From Pelodera strongyloides (taxonomy: Eukaryota; Nematoda; Chromadorea; Rhabditida; Rhabditidae), in NCBI GenBank assembly GCA_036852015.1, contig JAANDG010000239.1:62001-126000 (forward strand): a stretch of DNA of 64,000 bases, read 5' to 3'. Numbering within the stretch: position 1 is the first letter of the stretch; every line of letters starts with the position of its first letter. The notes below the pieces were generated by a model. The model did no database searches. It had not been told where the DNA came from and worked only from the letters and a program-made list of their open reading frames with translations. The position numbers and the translations under genes were made by a program. Positions 9,617 through 56,416 of this stretch are shown here, piece after piece.

Positions 9617-9665
<49 letters not shown>

Positions 9666-12626: not shown

Positions 12627-12696
<70 letters not shown>

Positions 12697-27088: not shown

Positions 27089-27133
<45 letters not shown>

Positions 27134-27176
27134 TTTATGTTTTGTTTTTTAAACTTTTAAAAAAAAAAAGAAGAGA

Positions 27177-27208
<32 letters not shown>

Positions 27209-27438
27209 GGCGCCAGGGACGAGGGTGGGAGAAAACATGAGAAAGAGGAGAGGAGAGAACTAGAAAGATAGTTGAGAGAGAGAGATTCGAAAAGAGAGAG
27301 ATGCGAGACTGAGAGAGAGACTGCGAGACTGAGAGAGAGACTGCGAGACTGAGAGAGAGACTGGAGACTGAGAGGGAGACTGCGAGACGGAGAGAGAGAG
27401 ACTGCGAGACTGAGAGACTGAGAGAGAGACTGCGAGAC

Positions 27439-27516
<78 letters not shown>

Positions 27517-28058
27517 CAGGGACGCGGTGTGAGAAAACATGAGAAAGAGAGAGGAGAGAACTAGAAAGATAGTGAGAGAGAGAGATTGCGAGACTGAGAG
27601 AGAGATGAGTGCGAGACTGAGAGACTGAGAGAGAGACTGAGAGAGAGAGAGCGAGACTGAGAGAGAGACTGCGAGACTGCGAGAGAGAGAGAGACTGCGA
27701 GACTGAGAGAGAGAGATGAGAGAGTGAGAGAGAGAGAGACTGCGAGACTGAGAGAGAGAGCGAGAGAGAGAGAGGATGCGAGACGAGAGAGAGAGAGAGA
27801 GCTGCGAGAGTGAGAGAGAGAGACTGCGAGACTGAGAGAGAGACTGCGAGACTGAGAGAGAGACTGCGAGAGGAGGAGAGAGAGATTGCGAGACTGAGAG
27901 AGAGAGATTGCGAGACTGAGAGAGAGAGACTGCGAGACTGAGAGAGAGACTGCGAGACTGAGAGAGAGACTGCGAGACTGAGAGGGAGACTGCGAGACTG
28001 AGAGAGAGACTGCGAGAACTGAGAGAGAGACTGAGAGAGAGAGAGACTGCGAGACTGC

Positions 28059-28092
<34 letters not shown>

Positions 28093-28350
28093 AAGAGAAA
28101 GAGAAGAGAGAGAGAGAGAGAGGGAGCAGGGACGCGGTGTGAGAAAACATGAGAAAGAGAGAGGAGAGAACTAGAAAGATAGTGAGAGAGAGAGATTGCG
28201 AGACTGAGAGAGAGAGATTGCGAGACTGAGAGAGAGAGACTGCGAGACTGAGAGAGAGACTGCGAGACTGAGAGAGAGACTGCGAGACTGAGAGAGAGAG
28301 ACTGCGAGACTGAGAGAGAGACTGCGAGAGTGAGAGAGAGAGACTGCGAG

Positions 28351-28386
<36 letters not shown>

Positions 28387-30698
28387 AAAGCATGAAGGCG
28401 AAGGTACATACAGCGGGAGAGAGTAGGTGAAAAAGCGCACGAGGGGCTAGTCAGACAGATAAGTGAGCAATATAAACAGTCCGCTTACAATTAGGAAGGA
28501 ATAGTAGGAATAGACTGTTTACGTAGAATATTTTTTAATAGGATAACAACCGGCCGAAGTCGGATTCCTCCAGTCGGAGAAGAGCTGCTACAGCTTTTAC
28601 ATAACGAATTGCCGCTTATTTCAATTATCCCGGTATCCCACGCTCCTTGGACATATCACTTACCAACTGTGTAAAAAATTGATTAAATGAAGGCTTCATT
28701 TAATCAATTCTTTCCGGTTATGCACACCTAGCTGGTATTGTGGTTTATAACTCCCCAGGCAGTTGTGGTGCTATGCGCCCACTGTGTGTTGCAGGCGAGC
28801 CGTATAAGTCGCTAGCAAGAACGAAATTTGGGTGTGGGTGGCGGTAGTGTAGTGGTTAGCATACTGGACCGGTAATCCAGAGGTCGTGGGTTCGACCCCC
28901 ACTCGTCCAATACCCCAATTTTTCGTTCATGCAATCAAACTGTGTAAAAAATGTTCACCCTTTTCAGCGTTACAAGTTCGTGTAGTTTGTTTACCGCTGT
29001 CGGATCTACTAAAAGGATATGTGAGTCTCACCTGAAATTGAAGTTCTTTTTTTGGCGGTTCCGAGGAATCTCCAAAGAAAAGCTTCTGAAATACTGGCGA
29101 GTGGAAGCCGAGGAGGTCCGCATTCACGTAGAATGTATGACCTGAAAGAATATACTTGCTTGTAACCGTGAGGCTCTAGCTTATAATTTACGTCACTCCT
29201 TGTCAGAAATGACGATTTGTACAATTAAAGCGAAATACCGGCCGGTTTTTGAAACACATCGAGTAAACCAGCATTGAAATGCAGCTTATGCAAATGAACA
29301 TGAATAAAAAACAAAAATCGAGCTAAATTCGAGTAAATGAACATAAGTACGTACGAATTCAATTGTCCACGGTGCGCTTCAAAAACCGGCCGGTATTTCG
29401 CTTTAATCATAAATGTTTATTGGATCAACGAGTCGTAGGAACCAAGAAGAAGGTTCTTGGGGTAGTTGCTATTAGCACTACCCTGATATCTTCTTCGCTC
29501 CTACGACTATTACTGTGGGAGTAGTTTTCCATAGACACCAAAGGAGTTGCACCTACCGAGTGACCTAACAAAGTCACGAGAAAATAACTGTAGTCACAGT
29601 TAAATGAGGAGGCGCATGAGAATGAAGTGCTCAAATAGTTTCCTCAGATGAGGGTATTAAATTCCGAAAGACATGCTTTACAAAGCAAACGCTTTTAATT
29701 GAAAGGAGTAAATCAATATAATACTATGAATTCTATTAAAGGGACAGGCCCACCGATATAAACCTACGTTTATTATTTGTTCATAATTCATAAAAAGGGT
29801 ATTTATTATAATATATACAAACTAAATATTATTCAGATTCACCATGGGGAAGTTTTTCCTGTGAGCTTTCCTTACAGAAGGTACCGTAGACAGGTCATTT
29901 GCACAATCATTTGCATACACACCTTTGATGTGGATATGCAAACGACTTAACTTCCCTTTCCGACAAAGGTGTGTATGAAAATGACTATGCAAATAACCTG
30001 TCTACGATACCTTCTGTAAGGAAAGCTCACAGGAAAAACTTCCCCATGGTGAATCTGAATAATATTTAGTTTGTATATATTATAATAAATACCCTTTTTA
30101 TGAATTATGAACAAATAATAAACGTAGGTTTATATCGGTGGGCCTGTCCCTTTAAAATTTTCGTAAAGGATCTTAGTAAATAGGTGATTTCCATAGTGGG
30201 CATGCAGATTTACAAGTCATTTTGCAAGCCGGCAAAAATTAGAATGCCCACTATGGAAATCAACTATTTACTACGATCCAAAATTTTTATAGACTTCATA
30301 GTCTTATATTGATTTGCTCCTTCCAATTAAAAGCTTTTGCTTTGTAAAGCATGTCTTTCGGAATTTAATACCATCATATTTCGATAAAAGGAAACCATTT
30401 GAGCACTTCATTCTCGTGAGCCTCCTCCTTTAAGCTACATTGTCCACCAGCTAACAATTTTAGAATCTTGACCGCCTTGGGGAGAAACGGTGTCCTGCCA
30501 CGAGAACCGAACCCGCGAGTTTGCACGGTGAGCAAGGCATTAACCACTGCACCACAAGGCGACCTACTACTAGGCGAAAATGGACGACAAAAAGCATTTT
30601 CACGAAAACCCACCGTCCTGAACTATAATTTTGTATTTATTAAAGAAGGTGATGCTCCTGTAATCCTCTGGCACCAATGGAGATGGGTCCACAACCAT
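5393..30698 (-). CDS. Gene B: BTB/POZ protein with C-terminal Cys/His cluster, about 25 kb, 8 exons
   Basis: Exons (minus): 30614-30698, 29032-29141, 18787-18862, 12187-12267, 11402-11483, 8524-8611, 5756-5881 and 5393-5545. Lengths 85/110/76/81/82/88/126/153 join to a 266-codon open frame, and the first seven equal those of gene C. BTB core HTFYVNADLLGFHSPVF (exon 2), MAELKDLMRMTTKF (exon 4), YEKVKWSLVDRLTE (exon 6). The Cys/His cluster is C211-x2-C214-x7-C222-x2-C225-x4-C230-x2-H233-x7-C241. Introns hold the LTR element, LINEs, GA satellite, MITEs and palindromes. Two splice oddities: the exon 7 acceptor AG comes from a transposon end, and exon 3 has a second in-frame acceptor 27 nt upstream. 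Exon order and frame make one gene likely, but transcription over 25 kb is unproven; scattered remnants are the alternative. Confidence 0.7.
5883..7168. mobile_element. TIR element (TGAGGCCGTATTCACCA ends) at the gene B intron 6/exon 7 boundary
   Basis: Inverted ends TGAGGCCGTATTCACCACTC and GGTGAATACGGCCTCA enclose about 1.29 kb with subterminal CCCTGGGGA and TCCCTGCAGGGA palindromes and no transposase ORF. Paralogous genes C and D lack it at the same place (gene C intron end ATTGTCTTCAG), so it is an insertion. A small relative lies at 24704-24838. The superfamily is not determined. Confidence 0.75.
7768..8356. mobile_element. TTAA-flanked MITE, family 3 (TTAAAGGGTGAGGTCCACC ends)
   Basis: Inverted termini TTAAAGGGTGAGGTCCACCT and complement bound 589 bp, in intron 6 of gene B. 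A second full copy of almost the same length is at 32539-33128 with similar internal sequence (CCAACGAAATATTGAGCAAAA). Confidence 0.85.
9119..9350. repeat. Minisatellite of about 30 bp units (CCCTCATACATCCCGT)
   Basis: At least seven imperfect units containing CACCC, YATACATCCCGT and GTACACCC motifs. Long ORFs on both strands here are repeat artefacts. Lies in intron 5 of gene B. Confidence 0.8.
9619..9665. repeat. AT microsatellite
   Basis: An alternating TA run of roughly 20 or more dinucleotides. Confidence 0.9.
10092..11271. mobile_element. 1.2-kb palindromic element carrying an inverted pair of tRNA-like sequences
   Basis: Arms 10092-10560 and about 10780-11271 are near-perfect inverted repeats, with termini GAGCGCGCTGCGTAATAAGA and complement. 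Each arm contains TAGTGGATAGCTC and GGGTTCTATTCCC-like stretches that resemble the A and B boxes of a tRNA gene. No ORF of note. It sits in intron 5 of gene B. Confidence 0.75.
11500..11960. repeat. Palindromic element in gene B intron 4
   Basis: Inverted arms share AAAGGAAATTT, GAGCCAGGAGCAAGCT, AAGCTAAGCTACCTCGACTT and ACGGTATGCC with their complements. Outer ends are CGGTCACCTCG and CGAGGTCACCG. This is a MITE-like fold-back without a coding region. Confidence 0.7.
12629..12692. repeat. AT microsatellite next to a CA-rich tract
   Basis: A TA dinucleotide run preceded by ACACAC repeats at 12586-12626. Confidence 0.9.
12754..13101 (-). repeat. 3' LTR
   Basis: 348 bp, TG...CA termini. Aligned by eye it differs from the other LTR at two positions only (GATGTAG/GAAGTAG and GTACATC/GTAGATC). 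Confidence 0.93.
13163..13801 (-). pseudogene. Integrase C-terminal remnant of the LTR element
   Basis: The reading frame up to the stop at 13163 carries FCDKKGIKL, FVEGMTVYARCYNEPVKWFPG and YRVHTSKGDWIRRTDQLR. This matches the pattern of metazoan Ty3/gypsy integrase ends (KW.PG..., RR..DQLR). The catalytic integrase core is absent. At its 5' side it is separated from the gag-protease frame only by the hAT-like MITE, so before that insertion the two formed one frame across the 8-bp duplicated site. Confidence 0.75.
13802..14630. mobile_element. hAT-like non-autonomous element inside the LTR retrotransposon
   Basis: 829 bp bounded by TAGAGTGGGGTCAA and its exact complement, with an 8-bp target duplication GTCCTAAC at 13794-13801 and 14631-14638. 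An 8-bp duplication and a TAGAG-type end are hallmarks of the hAT superfamily. The interior is rich in GAGTCACTCAT/GAGTGACTC motifs near both ends and has no transposase. Confidence 0.88.
14573..15796 (-). pseudogene. gag-protease ORF of the LTR element, truncated by the MITE
   Basis: Likely start ATG at 15796 (MDGRMRMEMF); the frame is also open upstream into the LTR. Retrotransposon gag features include WIARLQIQLDLR and EEFYRELERLAGKCEF. A zinc-knuckle-like motif CYNCDKLGHFAKDY has Tyr where the last Cys of CCHC is expected. The aspartic protease motif is ELDTGAALSIINE. The last codons run into the hAT-like element and stop at 14573, so polyprotein continuity is broken. Confidence 0.85.
15823..16170 (-). 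repeat. 5' LTR
   Basis: 348 bp, near-identical partner of 12754-13101, followed outside by the target duplication GAATT. Confidence 0.93.
16431..17571 (+). pseudogene. RTE-type LINE remnant, internally deleted
   Basis: The first part (16431-16720) looks like the start of an apurinic endonuclease domain (IICLRETRSHTL, AGGVGFIIHP). It is joined directly to the second half of a reverse transcriptase: HLRFADDLVLIAHSSQEADN (motif C FADD), GLRINIQKT, FVYFGRKINM, LTYAGETWAFTEKTERKL and HRWARHIMRR. The endonuclease end and RT motifs A/B are missing, so it is a deletion derivative. The LTR element inserted next to its 5' side. Confidence 0.8.
17575..18420 (+). pseudogene. CR1/Jockey-like LINE reverse transcriptase fragment, degenerate
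   Basis: RT motifs appear in order in broken frames: EIIYFDFAKTFDRVSHKKL (A), SGVPQRSVLGPILFS (B), SFVMYADDIKIYS (C) and VQIKDLGFIMTDDLSF. Stops and frame shifts occur near 17890 and 18077. It is related to, but not a copy of, the LINE at 19951-24480. Confidence 0.8.
18787..18889 (-). other. Gene B exon 3 with duplicated, in-frame acceptor
   Basis: A 27-nt tandem duplication places GTTACAG upstream and GTTGCAG downstream, each followed by GATGAAACCGTAA. Using the upstream acceptor (exon to 18889) instead of the usual one (18862) would add nine in-frame residues, DETVNILLQ, to the BTB domain. Confidence 0.6.
19144..19295. mobile_element. Half of a TTAA-flanked MITE, family 4
   Basis: TTAAAGGGAATATGTAAGCC, AATAGAATGCGTGTTGCCC-like and GTTGTC segments ending at CCATAGTAAACGCGTT match one arm of the larger copy at 25394-26241. 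Confidence 0.5.
20720..23522 (-). pseudogene. LINE ORF2: endonuclease + reverse transcriptase, one frameshift
   Basis: From ATG at 23522: NIRSLMKNLNNVHHF, PDILILVESWL and KKGGGICLYV are the start of an APE-type endonuclease. This frame stops at 23229, and a one-base shift near 23226-23235 restores the downstream frame (FIVVYRLPGC). The endonuclease then continues with LLGDFNIHFDF and SSDHNLITF. Reverse transcriptase motifs: DVIYLDIAKAFDKV (A), SGVPQGSVLGPILFLLY (B), IRCFADDCKIY (C) and MRDLGIQIQDNWHF. The C-terminal region holds no further break to the stop at 20720. It encodes target-primed reverse transcription functions, and one indel separates it from an intact ORF. Confidence 0.9.
23564..24455 (-). 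pseudogene. LINE ORF1 (two overlapping frames)
   Basis: ATG at 24455 opens MEVDKDKGVDAPVPR with a charged, Ser-rich stretch and LSEILGMGEVELEGML. This frame stops at 24132. A second frame, overlapping it from 24160 to 23564, continues with QTLNLKAMIKFLGI, RVFIRESMTFEQRQRLNEMR and NGVDRTKLAFETC. The FIRESMT..QR pattern is typical of the end of the RNA-binding region in LINE ORF1 proteins. One frameshift in the overlap is the simplest reading. Confidence 0.65.
24704..24838. mobile_element. Short TIR element, relative of 5883-7168
   Basis: GCCATATTCACCACTC at the left and GAGTGGTGAATATGGCCTCA at the right, with inner CCCCATGGGGGAAAT. The size is only about 135 bp. Confidence 0.65.
24839..25393. 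other. No gene seen (gene B intron 2)
   Basis: The right half has a short local array of GTGCCGACCCGACG-type units (about 25190-25300). Nothing else was recognised. Confidence 0.4.
25394..26241. mobile_element. TTAA-type MITE family 4 with a family 10 MITE nested in its centre
   Basis: The outer arms carry TTCGCCTTTTCCATAGTAAA and complement, and CAAGATTCAAGATGCAG and complement. The right end is AACATATTCCCTTTAA. The palindrome centre (ACATATTCGCTTTAA) is occupied by a second element at 25609-25902. Confidence 0.75.
25609..25902. mobile_element. TTAA-flanked MITE, family 10, nested
   Basis: TTAAAGCGAAATACCACCCGG on the left and CGACCGCTAATTCGCTTTAA on the right, inserted exactly at the central TTAA of family 4. 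A second copy is at 42353-42636 in gene C intron 5. Confidence 0.75.
26270..28385. repeat. 2.1-kb GA-rich satellite
   Basis: Purine-only to purine-rich sequence grading from simple (GA)n to a higher-order unit GAGAGAGACTGCGAGACT repeated many times. It is interrupted by an A-tract of about 40 at 27090-27129. Two nearly identical GGGAGCAGGGACGCGGTGTG-containing segments occur at about 27511 and 28119. Very long Ser/Leu ORFs here are artefacts. Located in intron 2 of gene B. Confidence 0.92.
28838..28909 (+). tRNA. tRNA-like sequence, probably a pseudogene or SINE head
   Basis: It folds with a D arm (GTGTAGTGGTTAGCAT), an anticodon stem CTGGA/TCCAG with loop CCGGTAA (anticodon GGT if functional), and a T arm GTGGG-TTCGACC-CCCAC. 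The acceptor stem has two mismatches and position 33 is C instead of T, which argues against a working tRNA. An inverted repeat (GAACGAAATTTGGGT and complement) surrounds it. Confidence 0.5.
29225..29406. mobile_element. TTAA-flanked MITE, family 2
   Basis: TTAAAGCGAAATACCGGCCGG and exact complement at both ends. Lies in intron 1 of gene B. Confidence 0.88.
29653..30375. mobile_element. Palindromic element hosting a family 1 MITE
   Basis: Arms AATTCCGAAAGACATGCTTT and complement flank a family 1 MITE at 29736-30155 and, to its right, a further fold-back (30160-30290, CCATAGTGGGCAT arms). This gives three nested inverted repeats in intron 1 of gene B. Confidence 0.75.
29736..30155. mobile_element. 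TTAA-flanked MITE, family 1
   Basis: TTAAAGGGACAGGCCCACCG and complement at the ends, with GGGGAAGTTTTTCCTGTGAG subterminal inverted segments. Confidence 0.88.
30490..30572 (-). repeat. tRNA-like sequence in gene B intron 1
   Basis: On the minus strand, GTGGTGCAGTGGTTAATGCC resembles an A box and GCGGGTTCGGTTCTC a B box. A diverged counterpart is found at the matching position of gene C (44697-44770), so it probably predates their duplication. Confidence 0.5.
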
Positions 30699-36540: not shown

Positions 36541-36813
36541 AACCCTAGGCGTCAAAAGCCTAGATGAAGAACAAAATGCGATTTGCTCGCAACGAGGGAT
36601 CGCTACAGTATGCGCGGATGACCTGCGCATCCAAGTTTGAATCGCAGCGAGAGGAGAGTGGTGTACGGTGTGTTATCCACCTACTCACAAAGTACAATTT
36701 TCATTACATGCATTACATGAAAACCTCCCTTTGCGATACAGTGGATAACACACCTTCATAACATCGATACGTAAACAAGCTTTATATTCAATCATTTATT
36801 CGGTGTAATTGGT
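36541..36813. repeat. Internal A.B repeat junction
   Basis: A (36541-36702) is followed immediately by B (36700-36813). A T-run of 29 lies just outside at 36481-36509. Confidence 0.8.
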
Positions 36814-40039: not shown

Positions 40040-40201
40040 AACCCTAGGCGTCAAAAGCCTAGATGAAGAACAAAATGCGATTTGCTCGCAACGAGGGATC
40101 GCTACAGTATGCGCGGATGACCTGCGCATCCAAGTTTGAATCGCAGCGAGAGGAGAGTGGTGTACGGTGTGTTATCCACCTACTCACAAAGTACAATTTT
40201 C
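40040..40201. repeat. Outer A repeat, 162 bp
   Basis: No mismatch seen against 36541-36702 (from AACCCTAGGCGTC to GTACAATTTTC). Confidence 0.85.
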
Positions 40202-40692: not shown

Positions 40693-43600
40693 TCAAACGG
40701 ACTTGAACAAAGTACGATCAATTTTGTATTTATTAGGTTTTCCGGGACACCGCATAAGGGACGTTGGGTTGTGAGTGTCACAGAAATACGTACTGCATTT
40801 TGAACAGACGATCCATGAATGCTGAAAATTAAACTTTAAATGATACTGAATTTAAGTTCTTTAGGCTAAACGCTTTCAAAAAAACGGTCCAGCAAAATAC
40901 CGGCCGTTTTTTGAAACGTCTGAACAGCCGCATTCTTATTTTATATTCTGAGTTATGTTTATTTGCAGGTTATATGCACAAAAATGAAAGAAATTGGCGA
41001 ATGCGTTCACAGAAAAGCTGCAAAACGAGCATTTTTATGCTCCATTGAATTGCTTAATAGTTCCATAAGTAACGCGCTGTCGATGGTTGAAGCCGATGTT
41101 AATATGATCTCAATTCCGCCTCCTATGCTGCCTGCATTTAGGTTAGCAGTATGTTCGAACACAAAAACACTAAGTGGCTTAGGTTTAGGCTTAGGCTTAG
41201 TTTGGAACGACTGTTTGGTACATCGTGTTGATTCGATTTTCGTAATTCAGAAATACAGCATTTAACTTTGTGTTCCTTTAATCTTGATCGCATTTTCACG
41301 TAAAAGCTGTTAAATTCCAGCTTACACTGTCACAATTATTGCACTTCCTTCTGACGTCACAGTGGACTAGAGAGTGAAGATTAGCGTTCATGGCCTCATT
41401 ATTTTTAATAGACATCTTCAGAATTGCCTCGTTCAGCCTCGAGTCTTTCACCTGAAGACAATATAGACTGAAGAAAAGGGTGAAGTCATTTGCTTACCAC
41501 TTCGTGTCCATATTTACGATTTCGTCTTAATTTTTATTAAAAGTGTTTATGCAAACCAAATTTTATCGGCATTCACCCCGGGGAACTTTTTCCGCCGAGC
41601 GCATCCACAAATGTGTACCGTTGCCTGGCCCTTCCTCTAGTTGTCTATCCGCTCTGGTTGTCTGCTCTCTCGGTTTTTTTTCTCTGGCACCTCTTTATTG
41701 AGCATACTCTCTCATGCGTAATTTTGCAACTGTGTTATAACATACGAGAAGTAAAAGAATTATTAGGACTAAATTGATGCAAATACGGTACCCTTATGAG
41801 TTGGGCTCGTCGTAAAAAAGTTCCCCGGGGTGAATGTGGATAAAAATTAGTGTGTATATATTGTAATAAACGCTGCTAATAAAAAATAACATGAAATCGT
41901 AAATATATGTTTATTTTGATGGGCCTGTCCCTTTAAAGCAAAATACTGGCCACTTTTTGAAACACATCGTGGACAGCTGAATTCTTACGTATTATGCTAA
42001 TGTGCTCGAATTTAGCTCGATTTTTTATTCTAATTTATGTTCATTTGCGCATGAGCTGCATAAGAATGCTGGATGTGTTTCAAAAACCGGCCTGTCTTTC
42101 GCTTTAATATAAAGTTATCACCCACCTTTTCCCATAACTTCATGTCCACAAGAGTTGTGATTGGTAGCTCAGAAAGGCGATCCACAAGACGCCACTTCAA
42201 TTCTTCGTAATCGCTAAATTTTTGTTGGGAGTGTATATATGTAGCCAACGCCAAAACCTTAGATGTCACAAGAAGGAAACATATTAGAGTACGTTTAAAT
42301 CAGGAACACATTCCTGCTTTGTTCACCGTTCAAAACCACATGGCGTATCGCCGTAAAGCGAATTAGCGGTCGGTCTCCAACAAAAAAAAAATACAAAAGA
42401 GGAGGAAAACCGTGCGTTTTTGGACTTATATGTTATATATATGGGATTTGCATGTTTGCAACATTGCAACTATGGCAAAAAACGCCAGTTTTCCTCGCAA
42501 GTATCAATTCGCAAAATCATGTGCAATTTACCGTAATTTTATTATTTGTTTGTGTTTTTCTATTTATTTTCGTTTATAACCGTTTTAAAACTATTTTTGG
42601 TGAAAAAAACCCGAAACCGGGTGGTATTTCGCTTTAAATAGCATGCGTCCGATTATAGACTTCGTTAGGAAAGCACTAACATGTGTTCGAAGTCGACGAC
42701 CATTCCGAGAAAGTCGACTAAAGTTTCCACATCAATATTGGGATCGTTGACGAGGCGAAAACCTGCGGATATACACCATTATGTTAATTGGAAATGGTTT
42801 AAATAATTTAAATTGACAGGCCCACGAGAAAAAAGTTTTCCCCAATTTATTTGTACAGCATGTCCGAAATTGCAGAAATATTAATGTGAAAACCGCATTG
42901 TTTGAAGCCCAGAACTCACAGAGTCATACCCCGGCAAACAGGCTTCGTTGTGGAGCCACAAACAAAAACCCAAACAAAAAAGTAAACTCTTCTCCTTTAA
43001 ATAATAAGTCAGGGGGTCTAATGGAGGTGATTTTTTTTGTTCTAATACTGCTCGTTCGCCGTCAAAAACCGGCCTTTAGTTCGCTTTAAACAATATGGAA
43101 CCTACTCATATGAGATTCGCAATGCATGCCCAAAAGTTCCACGTTAAACTTGTTTTCCATGCGCATCAGCTCCTTCAACTCAGAAACTGTAAAAAAAACT
43201 ATACAGGCTATACGTTCAAAAGCTAATATACATCATAGGAAATCAGTGAGCCCATTTGGTGACGGTTCGTTGGATTTTTCAGAACATTTGGTGATATGGT
43301 CCAAGTTTCACCGAAAACCGTTAACAACAGGCGCCAAATGGTCACCAACTGGTCACTAATCGACGTATGTAGTCACTTCTAAGCAAAAGGGAAATACGAG
43401 TTCCCAACACTTACGTGTTTTCTGCATAATATCCACACATACGTTTTCAATAGCTGTAAGAAGAAGAGAGAATGACGCTACGGTCTCATCCTGTAACAAT
43501 ACACTACTGAAGGCAAATAAAGCAGAATATCGGCCGGTTCTTGAAACGCATCTCAAGTACTTGCACATTCCTATGTATTTATGTAAAATGGGGTCGGTTT

Positions 43601-44893
43601 TTTTTCTAATTTTTGCTCATTTGCATATATTGTATAAGAAAGCAGGTGTACGCAGTGCGTTTCAGAAACCGGCCGGTATTTCGCTTTAACGGGAAGTCGA
43701 GCCCACTCCAGTCGCTTATGCTGTGCTTGACAGCGGCGAAGAAGGAGATTTACAAAATTGCGCAAGCGCGCCAATCGTACATCAGTGGTGCGGTACCAGG
43801 TTTGCGCCAATCGTGGGTCAGCGGCATGCGGTCCACGAGGGTAATTGGACATTTATGAAAGCTGTACATAACGAATTAACGAATTGGTGCTCGTTTCAAT
43901 TTTCCCGATATCCCACGCTTATCCGACATATTACGTGCCAATTTTTAAAGGGAGAGGCCCATGAGAATAAAGTTTTCCTCAATTTATTTGTAAAGAATGT
44001 CGGGAATTTCAGAAATATTACTGTGAAAACCGCATTGCTTGAAGCCTAGTGCTCACAGAATAATTCTCATGGGCCTCTCCCTTAAAGGAAAAATGTTAAC
44101 CCTTTCGGGATGTTTGTATGCTTTTGTACAGCACTATATTTGTACGTACCTCTGTAACCCCTTCCAGCCCTGCAAGTTTGATAACCAAACGCTGTCGGAT
44201 TAACTTAAAGAGTCAAGCTCACGAAAAAAAATTTTTTTTTGCTAGTTTGCCATATGTCGTTTCCATTTGTAAACTAGTATGGAGAACCGGAATATTATGG
44301 CAAACTAGCAAAATTTGTATTTCTCGTGAGCCTGTGTTTTTTTTGTGCTTACCGGTAATTGAAGTTCTTCTTTTGTCGGTTCCTTGGATTCTCCGAAGAA
44401 AAGTTTCAGAAATAATGGCGAGTAAGAAGCGAGGAGGTTTGCACGCACGTAAAATGTGTGACCTGAAATAATCTATTGCTTTTAATCCGAGAGCTCTTAG
44501 GCTTTAGCTCACAAACCCAATACTAACCCAATTTATGTTATTTCGAGTCAGCAATGAGGACTTTTATGTACCATTACTGTGGAAAAAGTTCTGCAAAGGA
44601 GTTGTACCAAATAAGTGACCGAATAAAGTTAAGAGAAAATAACTACAGTCACAGAGGCAAGATTATCCACCGGCAACCAATTCTTTTTTAGCCTTGGTGG
44701 GAAGTGATGCCCTGCCACGGGATCAAAGCACGCGAGCTTTGCACGGGGAGCAAGGTATTGCCACTAGGTGAAGATGGGCGACAAAGAAGCATTTTTACGA
44801 AAACCCACCGTCCTGTACTATAACTTTGTTTTTATTATAGAAGGATATGTTCCTGTACTCCTCTGGCACCAAGGGCGACGGGTCCACTACCAT
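40693..44893 (-). CDS. Gene C: BTB/POZ protein with C-terminal Cys/His cluster, 8 exons
   Basis: Exons (minus): 44809-44893, 44353-44462, 43415-43490, 43106-43186, 42681-42762, 42126-42213, 41326-41451 and 40693-40821, giving a 258-residue open frame. Start ATG GTA GTG GAC at 44893. BTB region, residues about 20-117: KVIVQD-GHTFYVRANLLASYSPLFLKLFFG, DETVASFSLLLTA, LSELKELMRMENKF. Helical BACK-like part, about 118-205: DVETLVDFLGMVVDFEH, YEELKWRLVDRLSE, VKDSRLNEAILKMSIK. Cluster: C211-x2-C214, then C222-x2-C225-x4-C230-x2-H233-x7-C241 (KCNNC, VCSKCSTYFCDTH), divided by intron 7. Lys-rich tail. By family knowledge a likely Cullin-3-type adaptor or transcriptional BTB factor; DNA or protein binding by the tail is inference. 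MITEs fill introns 2 and 4-6. Confidence 0.85.
41177..41200. repeat. Interstitial TTAGGC repeat in gene C intron 7
   Basis: GGCTTAGGTTTAGGCTTAGG: three to four units with one variant. Confidence 0.6.
41510..41936. mobile_element. MITE family 1, left terminus lost
   Basis: The right end GATGGGCCTGTCCCTTTAA is intact; the left 30 bp of the family are missing. The interior matches 57752-58215 (GCATCCACAAATG, CCTGGCCCTTCCTCT). Located in gene C intron 6. Confidence 0.8.
41933..42107. mobile_element. MITE family 2, sharing TTAA with its neighbour
   Basis: Begins at the TTAA that ends the family 1 copy and ends TTCGCTTTAA 18 bp from exon 6 of gene C. Confidence 0.82.
42353..42636. mobile_element. 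MITE family 10 in gene C intron 5
   Basis: TAAAGCGAATTAGCGGTCGG to CCGGGTGGTATTTCGCTTTAA: same termini as 25609-25902, opposite orientation. Confidence 0.75.
43516..43689. mobile_element. MITE family 2 in gene C intron 2
   Basis: AAAGCAGAATATCGGCCGG to CCGGCCGGTATTTCGCTTTAA; the left TTAA is mutated. Confidence 0.78.
43945..44085. mobile_element. TTAA-flanked MITE, family 7
   Basis: TTAAAGGGAGAGGCCCATGA and complement bound 141 bp. Similar internal sequence without the right end occurs near 8954 and 42820. Confidence 0.78.
44205..44335. mobile_element. MITE-like fold-back beside gene C exon 2
   Basis: TTAAAGAGTCAAGCTCACG and CTCGTGAGCCTGTG ends with inner TTTGCTAGTTTGCCATA and complement. 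It ends about 12 bp from the exon 2 donor. Confidence 0.55.
44697..44770 (-). repeat. tRNA-like sequence upstream of gene C exon 2
   Basis: Diverged counterpart of 30490-30572 (GCCACGGGATC, GAGCTTTGCACGG, GAGCAAGGTATT) at the same relative position in intron 1. Confidence 0.45.
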
Positions 44894-46686: not shown

Positions 46687-49222
46687 TCAAACGGACTTGA
46701 ACAAATTACGGTCAATTTTGTATTTATTAGATTTTCCGGGACACCGCATAAGGGTCGTTGGATTGTGAGTGTCACAGAAATACAAACTGCACTTCGAACA
46801 GGAGATCCATGAATGCTGAAATGTAAACGTGTAATAAATTTTAGTTTTAATTTAGGTTAGGAAAATTTTGTGAGACGCTGCATAAAGTACTGATAGATAC
46901 ATACCGATTTTTTTTCATTTATTTGCATGTAGCATATATACTATTACAGTTATACAAAGGCCGCTTCAAAAACCAGCTGTAGTATCACTTTAGTAAATAA
47001 AGAAATTTCCATCTTACTCTGTCACAATCGTCGCACTTCTTTCTAGTGTCACAGTGGACTAGAGTATGAAAATTAGCGTTGATGGCTTCACAATTTTTAA
47101 TAGACATCTTCAGGATTGCTTCGCTCAGCTTCGAGTCTTTCACCTGAATATCATATTGAATGGTTTCGCGAGTAAAATTGGACAAGCGCGGCAGAAAACT
47201 TCAAATAGCTCGTTTTTTTAAGAATTTGTTTGTCGCTAGCTCAAAAAGCTGTGGAATTACAGGACACCACCGTGGTATCGCACTCCAGTCACTTGAACAT
47301 AATTATTTGGAACTCTCTCTGGCAAATACTGACTTTTTCCCACAACTTGATCTCCACAAGTGTTGTGATCGGCTGTTCAGTAAGGCGATCCACGAGGCTC
47401 CACTTCAACTCTTCGTAGTCACTAAACGTGGCTTAGGCTTAGGCTTAGGCTTCGGTGCCGAACTTTACTGTGCATGCTATGTTCGGAAAATAAAATTTCA
47501 AAACCACAAATTGTTTTGCTTTAAAGCGAAATACCAACCGGTTTTTGAAACACATCGAGTACACCAGCATACACCCTACGCAAATGAACATAAATTAGAA
47601 TAAAAAATCTAGCTAAATTCGAGCAACTTTGCATAAATACGCAAGAATGGAGCTGCAAACGGTGCGTTTCAAAAACCGGCTGGTATTTGGCTTTAATCTA
47701 GAATTGAAATAAAAGAGCATGTCTCATATCGTTATTCCCATTGAAAAATCACTAACACGTTTCCGTTGTCGAGAACCAGTTCCAGAAAGTCGGCTAGAGT
47801 TTTGACACTGGTGTTTGCATCAGCCGCTTGATCACCTGAAGATAAATATGTTAAATATTTGCACATTACCTAGCTTACGGCGCAGCTGGACAGTTTATTG
47901 ATTGACCAAGCCAAGCGTCGTCATCTCGTAAGAAAAGTCTGATGTTAGAATCAATTTCTCGCTCACGCACATTCATATCAATTATATTTTTACCTGGGAT
48001 CTTTGCCTCGCACTCTCTCTCTCTCTCCCTCTCTCTCTCTTCCTCTCTCTCTCCCTCTCTCTCCCTCTCTCTCTATCTTCTCCCTCTCTGTCTTCTCTCT
48101 CTCTCTCCACTTCTCCTTCCAATTCTAAGTGTAAGGAGAGAAACCTACTGATACAGCGTATGCAATAAAAGTGCAAGCACTCCATGTTAAACTTGTTGGC
48201 CATACGCATCACGTCCTTGAGCTCAGCCACTGAAATTAAAAAGGAGTTGACTAAAAAATAAGTGGTGGGCACATATCCAATTATTGAAACGTAAACTACA
48301 AGTATACTGCGACTTTAGAGCATTTATCCCAAGAGCGTAATCGGTAGCGGGCTGGTCTCACAAGTAAGACGGCCAGGGTTCAATCGCATGTGTGTTTACT
48401 CTAATTATGGGTGGCCTAGCGGATCGAGCTCTCCACTTCCATCAACAAGACGATGGTTCGATTCCAGGCAAAGCTGGATTGCCAGCATCGGGTTTCGTTC
48501 TGACAATGTACATGTTTCATCTCCACGCCACACTGCTTTCTTGGCCCGTAATAATTTATTAGGCTCTGTTTATCTTTAGGGGTCAGAATGAGAAATAGGG
48601 GTCCAAACAACTTTTAGGTTTTAAAAATTTTGTATGGGTCCGAAAAACTTTTAGGGTTTTTAGGGGCTTTCTTTGCTTGTTTTCGCGCGTAAAATTATCA
48701 TAAGACTTACAGGTTCTTTCCCTAAGATAGCACTCGCCGTTCATAAGAATTTTCAGAAGATTAGCGATGGAGTTGACATTTTCATCCTGCAACACATCAA
48801 AAATAGTACTGACAATGAGTAGGTGTAGGTGTTAGAAACGCAGTTCCGTGTCAGGAATACTTATTATATATTCGTCTATGATTATGAGGAAACAGAAAAA
48901 TCAATAAATTATCAGGTAACAATGGGGCGTGGCGCAATGGCAAGCGCCTTGCTGACGCGGCCCGTAGTTGGCTCGATCCCGTCCCGGTACCCCCTCACCC
49001 CGGCCAAAGGTGTAAAAGTTGTCAGCTGGCTAAAACTGGCGGCGATAAATCGGCTTCGGGAGAAAATTTGCCTGCGTGGAGAAGTTTTGGACCAATATCT
49101 CCGGTATCAGAAAAGAACTGGACCCGACGCAGGGTTTCTGTGGATTCGGTGGATAGAACCCTTTACGCTCTTTACCTCTGTCCTCTCTCTCCTCTCTCTC
49201 CTCTCTCTCTATCTCTCTCTCC

Positions 49223-49270
<48 letters not shown>

Positions 49271-50323
49271 ATCTCTCTCTCTCTTTCTCCCTTTCTCTCT
49301 CTTTTTCTAGCCCGTTTTAAAAAAGACCTTACCGGAATTTGAACTTCTTGATTTGGCGCTTCAGTGAAATCTCCAAAGAAAAGTTTCAAAAATACCGGCG
49401 AGTACTCGGCTAGGAATTGGGCATTCACGTAGAATGTATGACCTGAAAGCCAAATACCAGTCGGTTTTTCTAAGCATCGCGGACACCTGAATTCTTACGC
49501 ATTTATGCAAATTTGCTCGAATTTAGCTCGATTTTTCATTCTAATTTATGTTCATTTGCATAAGATGCATAAGAATGTTGATTCACTCGATTTGTTTCAA
49601 AAACCGGCAGGTATTTCGCTTTAACCTGAAATAATAGTTTGTAATCCGGAAGCAAAAAAAAAATGTGCGGTTCTTTTGTCTGTTATGGAGAACTCTCTCG
49701 CAGTGATTCAAAAATCATCCTCTTTCTGAAAAAATACCGAATATTTTACGCAATCAGGTTCATTCCGCTGCATTTCCGTGACCATTTTGTGTGTTTTCTG
49801 TGAAATTCTCTATATTTCTCGTTGAGAATTTCACAAAAAATAACAAAGTGAAGCAATCAATCATACGAGGAGGATGAACACATAAAATGAACAACTAAAG
49901 TAGCAAAAAAATGTGTATTGAAAAAAAAATATTCAGGATTTTAGAAGCATTACTGTGGAAATTGATTTCCAAAACACCAAAGTAGTTGCACCACCGAGAG
50001 ACCCTTAGCTTACCGTATACATTAATTGCTTGGCGAAAATTAGCATGCAAGCCGCGGGTGAAATGAGTGAAGGTAGTTTAGCGACGTTGCGGCGTCAACA
50101 GTACCCGCCGCATAAATGCCAAGTTATCAAAGTACGTACACCATAACACATAACTCTATAACGAAAGACACAATATGAACTTCTGAATTTCAGTTGAACG
50201 GATGCAAGCTCTAAACAAAAGTACTTCAGAAAACCTACCGTCCTGTACTATAATTTTGAAGCCGTGAAGAAAGGTTTTGGTCCGGTAAAACTCTGGCTCC
50301 TCTGGTGATGGGTCCACAGACAT
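46687..50323 (-). CDS. Gene D: BTB/POZ protein with C-terminal Cys/His cluster, 8 exons
   Basis: Exons (minus): 50239-50323, 49333-49442, 48711-48786, 48149-48229, 47757-47835, 47334-47421, 47018-47143 and 46687-46815, a 257-residue open frame. Starts MSVDPSPEEPEFYR. BTB: FKIIVQD-GHTFYVNAQFLAEYSPVFLKL, DENVNSIANLLK, LAELKDVMRMANKF. Helical part: TLADFLELVLDNGN, YEELKWSLVDRLTE, VKDSKLSEAILKMSIK. Cluster: KCDDC then SCSKCSLYFCDTH plus a last Cys (C210, C213, C221, C224, C229, H232, C240). Exon 5 is one codon shorter than in C. Introns contain CT-rich tracts, tRNA-like sequences, a TTAGGC run and two family 2 MITEs. The exon 2 acceptor lies next to one of them. Confidence 0.85.
47431..47452. repeat. 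Interstitial TTAGGC repeat in gene D intron 5
   Basis: Three perfect units GGCTTAGGCTTAGGCTTAGG, about 10 bp from the exon 6 acceptor, so the transcript carries GCCTAA units in place of a normal pyrimidine tract. Confidence 0.7.
47521..47696. mobile_element. TTAA-flanked MITE, family 2
   Basis: TTAAAGCGAAATACCAACCGG to CCGGCTGGTATTTGGCTTTAA, in gene D intron 5. Confidence 0.85.
48016..48115. repeat. CT-rich simple repeat in gene D intron 4
   Basis: TCTCTC with CCCT interruptions; the transcript strand is GA-rich. Confidence 0.9.
48330..48480 (+). repeat. Two adjacent tRNA-like sequences in gene D intron 3
   Basis: First: GCGTAATCGGTAGCGGG and CAGGGTTCAATCGC. Second: GTGGCCTAGCGGATCGAGC and GATGGTTCGATTCCA. 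Both resemble tRNA A and B boxes. No complete cloverleaf was found, so they are likely SINE heads. Confidence 0.45.
48921..48992 (+). repeat. tRNA-like sequence in gene D intron 2
   Basis: GGGGCGTGGCGCAATGGCAA (A-box-like) and TTGGCTCGATCCCG (B-box-like), closing with CGGTACCCC. Probably a SINE head. Confidence 0.5.
49179..49312. repeat. CT-rich simple repeat in gene D intron 2
   Basis: CTCTCTC runs over about 130 bp, ending just before the exon 2 donor. Confidence 0.9.
49446..49624. mobile_element. MITE family 2 abutting the gene D exon 2 acceptor
   Basis: AGCCAAATACCAGTCGG to CCGGCAGGTATTTCGCTTTAA. ACCTGAAA is found on both outer sides, so an acceptor-like TTTCAG lies on each side of the element. 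Confidence 0.75.
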
Positions 50324-51400: not shown

Positions 51401-51568
51401 AAAATAACTTAAACACCATGATACATAGTACGATCAATTTTTCTTTTCAGTGCGCGTTTTTGACATGCTTTGTTGAAGTGAACCGGACAGAAATGGAGAC
51501 CGCATCTCCTACCCTCTGGGCCACTCCTACCCTCTGCCTTGACAGCGAGCGGTTGTGTGTCCACCAAA

Positions 51569-52285
51569 ATGATCTGTCCTAATGATCAGACCCCTATTTC
51601 TCGTCCCGATATTTCTATTCGACAAACAATCACCGAATTATTCACTGATCTGAAGGCCTTCATTCGAGAAGAACTCAAGGAATCATTCCGCCGTACTGAA
51701 CTCAAGAATCAATTCGTCGTACTCAACGTGGAGGAGAGCAAAAGGGTGAGTTATGACTTTGATATTGTTTCCAAGATCATGTCTTTGTCGAATAACTCAC
51801 CCGGCTCGTTTCACGTTCTGGGCCGTATAGGCAAATTCCGCAATAATTTCATTCGCCCTATCATTTGCTGTATGAATCCCGGCTGCCGCCTTCCCTATTT
51901 TAAGGAACTATCTACGAAGCTCAAGTCCATCCCAGAACTCTCTCACATCATGGTTCGTCGTGCCGAAACACCGCAGCAACGTCAGGAAGGATTTCTTCGT
52001 CGTCAAGCTGCACGAGCAGAGTCAGAGGTCAAAGTCCAACCAGAATCCTCAGCTGAGTTGCCTATGACCCCACGGGCAATTGAACAACCTCGACAGGAAA
52101 TAAATGAGCAATTGCCCCCGCCCAATTTGTCACCCGAAGTGACACCGCAGTTATCCTCCCCTCAGGTGCTCGTAAATGAGGCAATTGCCGATACTGAACA
52201 ATTGCCGTCAACTGACCCAATGTTAGACATTATTGCTTGTATTGCACAAACATTAACAAAATCGTTAGATAAAAAATCTAAATAA
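51569..52285 (+). CDS. LINE ORF1-type protein, ORF1-only element
   Basis: The open frame of 238 codons starts at ATG 51569 (MICPNDQTPISRP); the frame is also open a little upstream without ATG. A short helical segment, ITELFTDLKAFIREELKESF, is followed by HVLGRIGKFRNNFIRPIICC, FKELSTKLKSI and HIMVRRAETPQQRQEGFLRR. The order RLGK-like / RP / LK / D-T-P-QQR resembles the RNA-binding domain of LINE ORF1 proteins. A Pro/Gln-rich low-complexity tail follows. Downstream are AATAAACTATTATAATAATA at about 52465-52484 and a short A run, like a LINE 3' end, but no endonuclease or reverse transcriptase. It therefore looks like a non-autonomous element encoding only ORF1. A domesticated ORF1 gene is possible. 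Confidence 0.65.
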   Translation: MICPNDQTPISRPDISIRQTITELFTDLKAFIREELKESFRRTELKNQFVVLNVEESKRVSYDFDIVSKIMSLSNNSPGSFHVLGRIGKFRNNFIRPIICCMNPGCRLPYFKELSTKLKSIPELSHIMVRRAETPQQRQEGFLRRQAARAESEVKVQPESSAELPMTPRAIEQPRQEINEQLPPPNLSPEVTPQLSSPQVLVNEAIADTEQLPSTDPMLDIIACIAQTLTKSLDKKSK

Positions 52286-53516
52286 AGATGTTGTAAAGTT
52301 TCGGAAAAATGAATGAATAATAGATAATTTATATAATTTATTCTTTCTAGTTATGTATGATCTTTATGATAATGTATATTAGTTTGGACCCTTGTTAGTA
52401 GGAACTGTTGTGAAGCGTTCGTCTTAGGGTATCCTTTTGATTGCATATGTTTTTATGTGTGTATCAATAAACTATTATAATAATAAAAAAATCTTCCGCA
52501 GTCGATGCGCACATTCTGTGTCTGGAAAAATTAGCATACATCAAACGAATTTGTTTTGTCAATAACGATTATTCCGATCGCTTGCATTCGCGCTAGCGCG
52601 ATATCATATACACGATCACCTTAATTCAACTTACTAAGAGCTGTTTGCTAGCATAGTACTGTAGATTTCGGATATTGTTCCCCCTGTAAATGAATAAATG
52701 AAGCTTTGAGACTCACACTCACTGAAAAACCAATACAGTCAGTACAGAGGAAGCCGCTGCCAGTATGGATCTTTGAGAATGAGTGCCCGATTGAAGCAAT
52801 GTCACTAGAAGAGTTTTCGACGGACGTCTGCACAATAAGAGCGAGTAGGTGTCTGTCGTTGACCTGAGGAAAGGTTGAGGTTATTGGAAGACTTTTAGGC
52901 TTCACGCTTGACTCAATTCCACGATCCAACGGCTCCTACGGCAGCTTATCCCCCATTGGTAGTGTAAGATCAGTTGATTGTCTCTTTAAACTATTGGGTA
53001 CGTTCGCCCGGAGCGCATCGTGCGTTCGTTGTGCATAACGCATATGCTGACTTTTTAGTCCTCTGCGCGCTCTATTCCGCTGAATTACTTAGTACACGTA
53101 CACAAAAACTTTTCAAAAACATGCTCTCTAGTAGACAGTAACCCACACCTACACATTTCACAAACATACATTCCAACCTTATGTAATAAGATGCGTATTA
53201 TATCATTCAAACCGTACGAATTCCCAGATTTTGATCGTGTTCAGATGGCCAATATCCACCGAAGCCAGTACATCAGCAATTTTCAGTCTCAATTCCTGGT
53301 ACTCGCTGAAAAGAACAGAATTATTTCGATTTCGATTTCGAGCTAATCGAGTTCACATAGTTTGTGTGTTGAGCTACTGTGAACTGTGACTAAAGTAAAA
53401 CTAAAAGCGGGCTTGTTGCTTTCTTTGTGCACATTTCATTACAATACATTCAATATCGTATAAGGATACAATTAGAAAATTAAGGTATGTGTGCGTAATT
53501 AAGGTATGTGGGGAAA

Positions 53517-53632
53517 TTAAAGGCCCACCGATATAAACCTACATTTATTATTTGTTCATAATTCATACAAAGGGTATTTTGGTAAAAAGGGGTAATAAAT
53601 GTAGGTTTATATCGGTGGGCATGACCCCTTAA
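53517..53632. mobile_element. Short family 1 derivative
   Basis: TTAAAGGCCCACCGATATAA and complement over 116 bp, a mini-version of 29736-30155, in gene E intron 5. Confidence 0.75.
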
Positions 53633-54774
53633 GGTATGTGTGAAAAATTAAGGTAAGTGTGGAAAAAAAGTAATATAATTTCTTACACTTCGTCCTGGCC
53701 CGTAGTTGCCTTCAGCACGTTACACATCAACAATATTTGCTCTTCAGTCAGGTTCTCCACAGGACAAGAAGCTATTCTTTCTAAACAAAAGAAATACGTG
53801 TCTATACTATACATGCATATACCGAACAATTAGGGCAAAACGGATGTTTCTCCGTCACGGGTGGTAGATTCTTGGAAGGAGTTACGTACGTTTGCGTTCG
53901 TAATCCAAATACAACATTAGTGTAACTATTTTGAAGGAACGTGACATGCCGCGGCGTGCGTTCTGTCTGCACCATGCACTCGAGTTGCTGCGGCGAACTA
54001 ATTGCGCAAAAAATTTCGCGTGCGATACGTTGCCGAATGAACAATGCAACTCAAGTACATGGCGTATTATGATGAATTAGAATGGAGAAAATTTTACCGA
54101 GAAAATCCCTGCAACGTCTTCGCACACTTGGAATATCATAAACACTGGACATGCGCATAAGCTCAAGAACATCGTTGTCTAAATTGAGCATGTTATATTT
54201 ACATTGGCAATTGAGTTTATTACTCAATGTAAGTAGTAAGTTGCAAAATAAGTAAGATGACGAAGTATTTTATATGACTTCACTACAATTTCTACTTACC
54301 CTTGTTACTGACAAACAAATAATCAACTGCAAGACGTACGAGTTAGGTGCGCATGTATTGTCTGACTAAGCTGCCGCAGTTTTTCGATGAACATTACACA
54401 CTACGATTCACAATCCAGGTGTCATATCGCTTTAAATACTCCTACCTGTAATTTTACGATGTCCATCCAATCCCATGCCAATGGTACCGAGAAGAAGACT
54501 GAACGATTCCAAACTTTCGTTCTAAAACAATATTTCACGATCAAGAAATAAATGAGGATAAATGAAACAAATACGCTAAACTTGCACGGGATACCAGCAC
54601 GAATTTCTTCCTAATGGACAACACTACACACTACGTGATGCCGGAAGGCCGGTTTTTGAAACGCATCGAGAAACCCTGCATTCTTATGCAGCTTATGCAA
54701 ATGAGAATACATTTGGATAAAAAATCGAGCTAAATTCGAGTATTAGAATAACTCGGATGTCGGTACTATTGAAC

Positions 54775-55131
54775 TTAAAGCGAATGTCAAGCCTGATTCA
54801 CAGATATTCTATAACACGCTGTCACAGCTTCCGTAGTTTACACAATTTCTCTCGCGCTCTCCTCTTTTTCTTTGCTGACTTAAACAAATTTCTCTCGCGC
54901 CCTCCTCTTTTTCTTTGCTGTCTAACAGCAAACGGTCCTGCGGCAGAGAATAGTTCTGATTTTGTCCACACGACTCGAATCCCATATTGAAGGAGTTTTT
55001 TGGAGGGGTTTGAAATTGTTTTTCTTCTTATATGTAAGTTTTTGTTTATTTTTATTTTCACTTTCCTTACCTTCAAAACATAAGCTTTCTTTTTAACCCA
55101 ACATGAAAAACCGGCTTGACATTCCCTTTAA
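54775..55131. mobile_element. TTAA-flanked MITE, family 9, nested
   Basis: TTAAAGCGAATGTCAAGCC to GGCTTGACATTCCCTTTAA; shares its right TTAA with the next element. Confidence 0.75.
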
Positions 55132-55877
55132 GGGGCCCCAAAACATTTTTCAACTTTTTTTCGGGAAACTTCGTAGGAATAGGTAATCGACCCTCCTGAT
55201 TACGATAAAGTAGGTCATTCAGGCCCTGGGAGCCTATAATGCCCTTTAGGGCCCTACAACCTTAAGGACCCAAATTTTTAGATTTTGCTGAAACTTCATA
55301 GGAATAGGTTATCGATCATCCTGATTGCGGCAAAGTGGTTCACTCGGGTCATAGATGTCCAAAAGAACGCTAGCTAGGGTCTATAACCATCTCACCTAAC
55401 GACCTAACAAGGTGCCGCTGCTTGATTTTGCAAAACTGCATAGAACGACGTTAGCGAAAATCTTTATTTCGAGAAGAAGATTGGAATGACTAACTTTGCA
55501 AAACATAGCTATGGTTGTATAAGTGGCACAGTAATGCTTGCATGAGACAGTAGGTGAACGTCCCATTTGGAGATTAGAGCCCTGTTGGGCATTTTATCGC
55601 AGGGTTATAGGCGGCATTTTTGGACATCTGGCGGCATTTTTGGACATCTATGTCACGAATGAGCCACTTTGTCGCAAGCAGGATGACCGATAACCTATTC
55701 CTATGAAGTTTCAGCAAAATCTAAAAATTTGGTTCCTTAAGGTCTTAGGCCCCTAACGGGCTTCATGGGTTCCTAGGGCCTGAACGACCTACTTTATCGT
55801 AATCAGGAGGGCCGACTACCTATTTCTGCGAAGTTTCCCGAAAAATAAAATAAAAAAATTTTTTTGGGGCCCCTTAA
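55128..55877. mobile_element. TTAA-flanked MITE, family 8, long inverted arms
   Basis: TTAAGGGGCCCCAAAACA to TTTTGGGGCCCCTTAA, with arms of more than 200 bp (CTGATTACGATAAAGTAGGT and complement). Confidence 0.82.
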
Positions 55878-56416
55878 GTTCAATAGTACCCGGATGTCCA
55901 CGATGCGTTTCAAAAACTGGCCGGCGTTTCGCTTTAACTGAAAACTGAGAGGAAATAACTAACCGGAAGAGAAGCTCCTTGTTCCCGAGTTTCCTTAAAG
56001 TTACCAAAGCACAATTTCTCGAAATACGGTGACATTTCAGCCAGAAAATAGTGGTTGACATAAGACGTGATCTGAAATGTATATAATTAGAGTCCTGAAT
56101 AGGCTTTGCACGCTATTGGGAAGCGGGAGTTCTTAGGCTTGCCGCCGGCAGCTTGGAATTGCCTTGATACACTTGAGAAAGCGCGGCGGTGTTCTCGCAC
56201 ACTTTTGGGTGTGCCAATGTATGCGAGTTTCGAGCGTTTTCCTGCATAAAATGTATAAAACGCATGAAATTACTTTCAATTAGAAAAATTACTTCCAATT
56301 AGACATAAATTGCAAATAGACCGACCGTCCTGTACTTCAAATTTAAACGGGTGAAGGGTGGTCTTAGTTCTGTACGCTTCCGGGACCGACGGCTCCAGCT
56401 GGCCTTCGCCAGACAT

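Follow-up and report, generated by a model that had tools for sequence, protein, structure and literature searches.

A conserved, probable zinc-binding tail with AN1-like spacing in a predicted tandem family of nematode BTB proteins

The predicted genes of the window (the whole 64,000-nucleotide stretch analysed, C239:62001-126000 of a 160-Mb assembly of Pelodera strongyloides) form a tandem family of nematode BTB proteins, about 258 aa long, each intact member ending in a Cys/His-rich tail that is almost certainly a real zinc-binding module. The closest match to this tail in sequence comparisons is the AN1 finger of the ZFAND1/2/Cuz1 type. We tentatively propose, at slightly less than an even chance for the combined reading, that the tail would be a two-zinc, AN1-like finger with its eighth ligand shifted to the N-terminal side, carried by a probable CUL3-type BTB adaptor, the fold, the ligand shift and the function all being predictions. 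The nematode SL1 sequence occurs in 315 exact copies in the genome, against none for its reversed control, which marks the genome as that of a nematode. The members of the family recognised in the window, and the two exons that encode the tail of gene C, are located as follows.

Gene E: 1..2882, minus strand; exons 1-5 (606-2882), with exon 6 truncated where the window begins
Gene D: 5393..30698, minus strand; 8 exons across 25 kb
Gene D exons 1-4: 30614-30698, 29032-29141, 18787-18862, 12187-12267, minus strand
Gene D exons 5-8: 11402-11483, 8524-8611, 5756-5881, 5393-5545, minus strand
Gene C: 40693..44893, minus strand; 8 exons, 258 aa, BTB domain plus predicted zinc tail, AG/GT at every intron
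Gene C exon 8: 40693-40821, minus strand; second Cys pair, C-x2-H, final Cys, and a conserved [IV]-D-R terminus before the stop
Gene C exon 7: 41326-41451, minus strand; invariant His (tail residue 26) and first Cys pair; each of the remaining intact members has a paralogue of this exon
Gene B: 46687..50323, minus strand; 8 exons, 257 aa, BTB plus predicted zinc tail
Gene A: 51409..56416, minus strand; divergent member, exon set partial
Gene F: 59196..61726, plus strand; 8 exons, 262 aa, BTB plus predicted zinc tail with C-x4-C and H-x5-C spacing
Gene G: 62360..64000, plus strand; 5′ exons with limits set by eye, exons 6-8 lying past the window end in L048

The BTB domain occupies exons 1-4, a conserved linker exons 5-7 and the zinc tail exons 7-8. 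Exons 7 and 8 of gene C join in phase 0 with AG/GT sites, as read from the sequence (predicted splicing). Eight full 8-exon models were predicted in this way (B, C, D, E, F, L029, L031 and L044a), that of gene E being completed by exons 6-8, including the zinc tail, found in L039. The B and C models were built by hand and D was assembled by joining once its third exon had turned up, whereas F, E, L029, L031 and L044a came from a scripted paralogue search that required AG/GT sites and the B/C phases. The phases common to these five models are therefore imposed, but their open frames and sequence likeness are not. Gene D has its stop 8 codons beyond the usual position, a second possible in-frame acceptor at exon 3 (18889) and a longest intron of about 10 kb. 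The zinc tail of gene A looks degenerate, since its exon-8-like end lacks the third Cys. More copies lie on contigs C239, C157, C149, C31 and C525, several of them damaged, and weak matches outside the tail set were also seen on C31, C140, C283, C88 and C439. In four copies on C149 (L034, L035, L036 and L037) the exon 8 acceptor TTTTCAG is changed to TTTTCAA, in some with frame changes as well, so that these tail copies look like pseudogenes.

Pfam BTB was matched above its curated cut-off in each of the five complete models put through the scan (B, C, E, F and L044a; E-values of 6.6e-9 for C, 1.3e-11 for B, 1.2e-10 for F and 1.4e-10 for E), and no other Pfam family reached its cut-off in these five. 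With BTB found by Pfam in B, C and F and with exons 7-8 in phase, the predicted genes bear out the claim of an earlier note that a zinc cluster is joined to a BTB domain here. Among solved structures, the family profile matches SPOP best (E 4.1e-6), across the BTB part. The family thus has in common with SPOP, its closest solved BTB, and with the nematode MATH-BTB adaptors the BTB domain itself, but no MATH domain was found in the window family, which carries the C-terminal zinc tail instead. Judging from the likeness to the SPOP BTB domain, the chance that these proteins act as CUL3 adaptors is about even. Large BTB expansions are known in nematodes (PMC1257465), and 52% of C. elegans BTB proteins (excluding Skp1 and ElonginC) had no other recognised domain in the 2005 survey given in that source. 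At other BTB loci of the genome (L001-L008, about 3 kb each, plus L049 and L050), within short flanks, no convincing zinc tail was found (best E 0.028).

Across exons 7-8, the tails of B, C and D read C-x2-C-x7-C-x2-C-x4-C-x2-H-x7-C, exactly as had been noted before, and the shifted version around the same core that had been ascribed to F was found as C-x4-C-x8-C-x2-C-x4-C-x2-H-x5-C. The G tail (L048) is C-x2-C-x8-C-x2-C-x4-C-x2-H-x4-C. All 14 intact tails fit the pattern H-x10..15-C-x2/4-C-x7/8-C-x2-C-x4-C-x2-H-x4/5/7-C, the first Cys pair being C-x2-C in nine and C-x4-C in five. This set consists of alignment A1, that is, 12 intact tails, plus L031 and L040. A1 itself omits three near-copies, L030 and L031 of L029 and L040 of D, as well as the damaged or incomplete tails of gene A (third Cys lost), L043a, the C149 copies L034-L037, L033, L038 and L042, an incomplete copy of G type within L043, and isolated or weak matches to exon 8 from L040 and L046. 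Within A1, and hence for intact tails only, C37, C40, C48, C51, C56, H59, C67 and an upstream His, H26, are invariant (12/12), as are V1, L6, I10, N17, D77 and F81 (C-tail numbering), while the identity of the aligned tails to the C tail ranges from 32 to 86%. H26, which was absent from the earlier note, stands 10-15 residues before the first Cys in all 14 intact tails, and supplies an eighth candidate for a zinc ligand. Across intact paralogues, the donor of exon 7 and the acceptor of exon 8, as read from the sequence, lie at the identical place between the two Cys pairs.

When the residues of the C, F and G tails were shuffled, the seven-ligand core arose in 0, 1 and 0 of 200,000 trials, respectively; recurring at most once per 200,000 shuffles, the motif is not a product of chance. 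Over exons 7-8, pairwise dN/dS (Nei-Gojobori, own script) was 0.46 for B/C, 0.12 for B/D and 0.25 for C/D, with a range of 0.09-0.66 among the pairs listed (dS < 1.5; D is entered twice in the table), and by these ratios the tail is under purifying selection. For gene C and L031, dS was 0.05 over BTB exons 2-3 but 0.31 over exons 7-8, a contrast that hints at exchange or conversion among paralogues. From H26 onward all 14 tails are basic (pI 8.6-9.5), so contact with nucleic acid or histones may occur. AlphaFold prediction of exon 8 alone, for four window sequences, was too poor for use (mean pLDDT 59.1, pTM 0.26).

The affinity of the tail to AN1 fingers emerged from several comparisons. Searched against the PDB, the tail profile matched eight chains at E<=10, of which six were AN1 (0.002 to 0.25), including the top five; the best of all was 1x4v, which we take to be an AN1 protein, and the remaining two were the PML B-box (0.14) and the T. 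ni piggyBac cysteine-rich domain (CRD) 5lme (1.2, last of the eight). In hhalign, the tail profile reached 92% probability against a set of four AN1 chains of the ZFAND1/2/Cuz1 type, chains that had been picked by the tail profile itself, 91% when three ZNF216-type chains were added to them, and 10% against the three ZNF216-type chains alone. As single sequences, the four AN1 chains gave 68-87%. In the shuffle tests, Cys and His were held in place while the other residues were shuffled. Scores of the four AN1 chains under the tail profile were reached by 0, 2, 1 and 5 of 300 such shuffles, and by 0 of 100 column shuffles; in hhalign, two AN1 chains were each reached by 0 of 60 shuffles and the one ZNF216-type chain shuffled by 12 of 60, which is at chance level. 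The reverse test, a profile of the four AN1 chains on the 12 tails, mostly fell within the shuffles (1-58 of 200; 1, 8, 10 and 10 of 200 for the four best tails and 18-58 for the others), and it should be kept in mind that the reverse-test profiles for AN1, piggyBac and Tc5 were each built from one to four sequences.

In the Pfam comparison proposed with the earlier note, zf-AN1 was matched below threshold in 8 of 12 tails, the most of any family, and zf-Tnp_2 was not among the 12 Pfam families matched by any tail. No Pfam family passed its cut-off in the tails listed. No tail reached the zf-AN1 cut-off of 27.9 bits, the best among the tails listed being 16.1 bits. Among the 11 tails listed, the top sub-threshold match was AN1 in C and L045b, Tc5_C in L032, E and L043b, and other Pfam families in D, L044a and G, and B, L045a and F had no match; in the G tail, two B-box families score above AN1.

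What the tails have in common with AN1 (PF01428; ZFAND1/ZFAND2/Cuz1 type) is the core C-x2/4-C...C-x2-C-x4-C-x2-H and, in B-E, a final Cys at H-x7-C. In AN1 fingers, six Cys and two His coordinate a pair of zinc ions (PMC5035049). In Cuz1, the two sites are Cys18, Cys21, Cys39 and His42, and Cys31, Cys34 and His48 (PMC5035049), the last ligand of the second site being the final Cys, as read from the Cuz1 sequence. The first of these sites is kept in the tails, but the second AN1 His (H-x5-H-x-C) is absent from all 12. Its position is taken by Met or Leu in B-E (H-x5-M/L-x-C), which for B, C and D agrees with the Met (H-x5-M-x-C) pointed out earlier; it is missing in G (H-x4-C), and in the F type it is a Cys (H-x5-C), with no Cys following at the AN1 place. 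The central Phe described for AN1 (PMC5035049) recurs before the fifth Cys in C, B, D, L029, L032, E and L043b; the tails of L044a, L045b, L045a, F and G carry Val, Ile or Leu there. The tails further differ from AN1 in having the invariant upstream His, in being joined to BTB and in staying under the Pfam cut-off. The AN1 reading offered in the earlier note thus held in that AN1 is the nearer family in sequence, and did not hold in that one defining ligand is missing throughout. Given the sub-threshold Pfam matches and the reverse profile tests, AN1 kinship is the best single reading yet not a secure one, and we would put it at roughly even chances.

In the structural model that we propose, the tail would be a small cross-brace finger with two zinc ions, a relative of the ZFAND1/ZFAND2/Cuz1 AN1 finger. 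The first zinc site would be formed by C37, C40, C56 and H59, that is, the first Cys pair with C-x2-H, in AN1 manner, and the second by H26, C48, C51 and C67, with the upstream His replacing the lost second His of AN1. Such an upstream-His arrangement is that of the PiggyMac CRD and of PKC C1 fingers. That H26 is in fact the eighth ligand seems to us an evenly balanced proposition, as packing could instead account for its conservation. The BTB domain, by analogy with SPOP, would dimerise and recruit CUL3, and the basic zinc tail would serve as a fixed docking module for a partner, be it a ubiquitin- or proteasome-side factor, a substrate or chromatin. The family may thus be an uncharacterised kind of ubiquitin-ligase adaptor.

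Several other origins of the tail were considered. One is that it is an independent, lineage-made cross-brace finger whose AN1 likeness is convergence on ligand spacing, which we consider unlikely. It would fit with the variety of unrelated zinc families matched below threshold (AN1, Tc5_C, HIT, B-box, RING), with the mostly within-shuffle scores of the tails under the AN1 profile and with the failure to find any relative at E<=10 in a large protein collection, searched with full gene C, a six-member alignment and the C tail region (541, 2739 and 1 candidates, respectively). This silence, however, is weak evidence of rarity because the collection, searched without a positive control for nematode content, may contain few nematode proteomes. 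Against convergence, the AN1 chains do exceed ligand-preserving shuffles under the tail profile. Derivation from the C-terminal domain of a Tc5 transposase, itself AN1-like and present in the genome, is in our view rather unlikely. Four of the 12 tails are matched by Pfam Transp_Tc5_C (PF04236), at best with E 5.4e-4 and 20.7 bits, and in L032, E and L043b it ranks first. No tail reaches its cut-off of 27.4 bits, and the matches do not include the stretch of the Tc5 domain that precedes its first Cys. A profile of three Tc5 pieces from the same genome gives C, B, D, L029, L032 and E, which are close mutual relatives, scores that hardly any shuffle reaches (0-3 of 200) and for these outdoes the AN1 profile in the tail-scoring direction, whereas the remaining six tails lie within or near the shuffles (9-74 of 200). 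In the opposite direction, the scores of the tail profile on the three pieces are reached by 17-39 of 300 shuffles, and hhalign gives 1-33% for single pieces, the C247 piece not exceeding its shuffles (10/60). The C247 domain reads C-x4-C-x7-C-x2-C-x4-C-x2-H-x5-H-x-C, so Tc5 and the tails agree in C-x4-C-x7-C-x2-C-x4-C-x2-H and in the final Cys at H-x7-C, but in two of the three pieces read Tc5 keeps the His of H-x5-H-x-C, and the domain stops at the last Cys and is without BTB.

A third origin, put forward in the earlier note, is a captured piggyBac-type CRD that would bind transposon ends or histones, making the proteins host-transposase fusions. We regard it as quite improbable. The core C-x2-C...C-x2-C-x4-C-x2-H is indeed common to the tails and the T. 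ni CRD, which is likewise basic, and in one shuffle test the T. ni CRD under the tail profile was reached by 5 of 300 ligand-preserving shuffles, equal to AN1 chain 5ij4; its hhalign probability (25%) also exceeds that of the three single ZNF216-type AN1 chains (2-18%). Against this, its E is 1.2, as opposed to 0.002 for the top AN1 chain, its hhalign score is reached by 10 of 60 shuffles that preserve the ligands, and as a profile on the tails it stays mostly within shuffles (10-123 of 200). The T. ni CRD ends H-x4-C-x2-C, and the final C-x2-C of its CxxC-CxxC-CxxH-CxxC arrangement is absent in 12/12 tails, G having H-x4-C without it. PiggyMac resembles the tails in its first half: an upstream His and the intervals between the first five ligands, H-x10-C-x2-C-x7-C-x2-C, are the same in B, C, D and E, again with eight candidate ligands, its zinc sites being given as His701, Cys723, Cys726 and His749, and Cys712, Cys715, Cys737 and Cys745, in a circularly permuted cross-brace of treble-clef fold (PMC8086355). 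Its second half, in contrast, is C-x10-C-x7-C-x3-H, as compared with C-x4-C-x2-H-x7-C in the tails, which lack the C-x3-H end; it is acidic (pI 5.48, PMC8086355), whereas the window tails are basic and the window proteins have no transposase core. No Pfam match to DDE_Tnp_1_7 was seen in the five full models scanned for BTB, nor was this domain found in the assembly, where the search control was uninformative, whereas the transposase domain of another family, the Tc5 C-terminal domain, was readily detected there (E 6.2e-13 and 7.2e-11). For zf-Tnp_2, the assembly gave two weak sub-cut-off matches, on other contigs. The basic character of the tails and the TTAA-flanked repeats at the locus would suit a captured CRD; the earlier suggestion of a fusion is supported faintly at best.

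Two copies of the Tc5 C-terminal domain lie at C247:146426-146605 (L059) and C649:653-838 (L058), the former with AN1 spacing, and zf-AN1 matches both below threshold (E 0.07 for C247 and 0.0034 for C649), raising the thought that Tc5_C may be an AN1 relative itself. Other zinc fingers were compared by their known ligand spacings. B-box and HIT fingers were set aside (zf-B_box and ANCHR-like B-box in 1/12 tails each, HIT in 2/12, all below cut-offs), as was the MYND finger as an identity for the tail. The PKC-type C1 finger (1ptq), H-x12-C-x2-C-x13-C-x2-C-x4-H-x2-C-x7-C, is alike in its upstream His and in a second half of the form C-x2-C-x4-[H/C]-x2-[C/H]-x7-C, which agrees with B-E apart from one site where Cys and His are exchanged, but has H-x2-C where the tails have C-x2-H and an x13 loop instead of x7-8, and in hhalign C1 showed no profile similarity to the tails (16/60 shuffles reach its score). 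Among the papers listed, none dealt by its title with either a BTB-AN1 or a BTB-C1 combination.

Returning to the AN1-like finger with a shifted ligand, a bolder and to us doubtful extension is that the tails are a new class of binuclear finger between AN1 and C1/PiggyMac, in which a ligand has moved from the C- to the N-terminal side (circular ligand permutation), and which would provide a duplicating array of CUL3 adaptors with a means, derived from AN1, of contacting the degradation machinery. If the ligand shift were true, it would take one cross-brace fold into its circularly permuted form with zinc kept, and BTB adaptors would have gained a docking module akin to that of AN1 proteins. 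More generally, the family shows how a BTB protein can conceal a conserved zinc module beneath profile thresholds.

The cluster is also rich in repeats. As the earlier note had stated, TTAA elements are present at the locus: TTAA-flanked repeats are common in the window, with 38 loose matches to two termini, and two short-element families, beginning TTAA-AGCGAAATACC and TTAA-AGGGACAGGCCCA, are repeated within and between the cluster genes (e.g. at 901, 29225, 33436, 41936, 43689, 47521, 49624 and 57752). The window analysis found no link between these repeats and the tail. Interstitial TTAGGC repeats, of nematode telomere type, occur at about 41178-41202 and 47424-47450, in introns of genes C and B, respectively. 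A near-identical repeat of about 160 bases, recognised by eye on the plus strand, lies at about 36541-36700 and 40041-40200, 3.5 kb apart, and a tRNA match (28839-28910, plus strand) is located inside the exon 2-3 intron of gene D, on the strand opposite to that gene.
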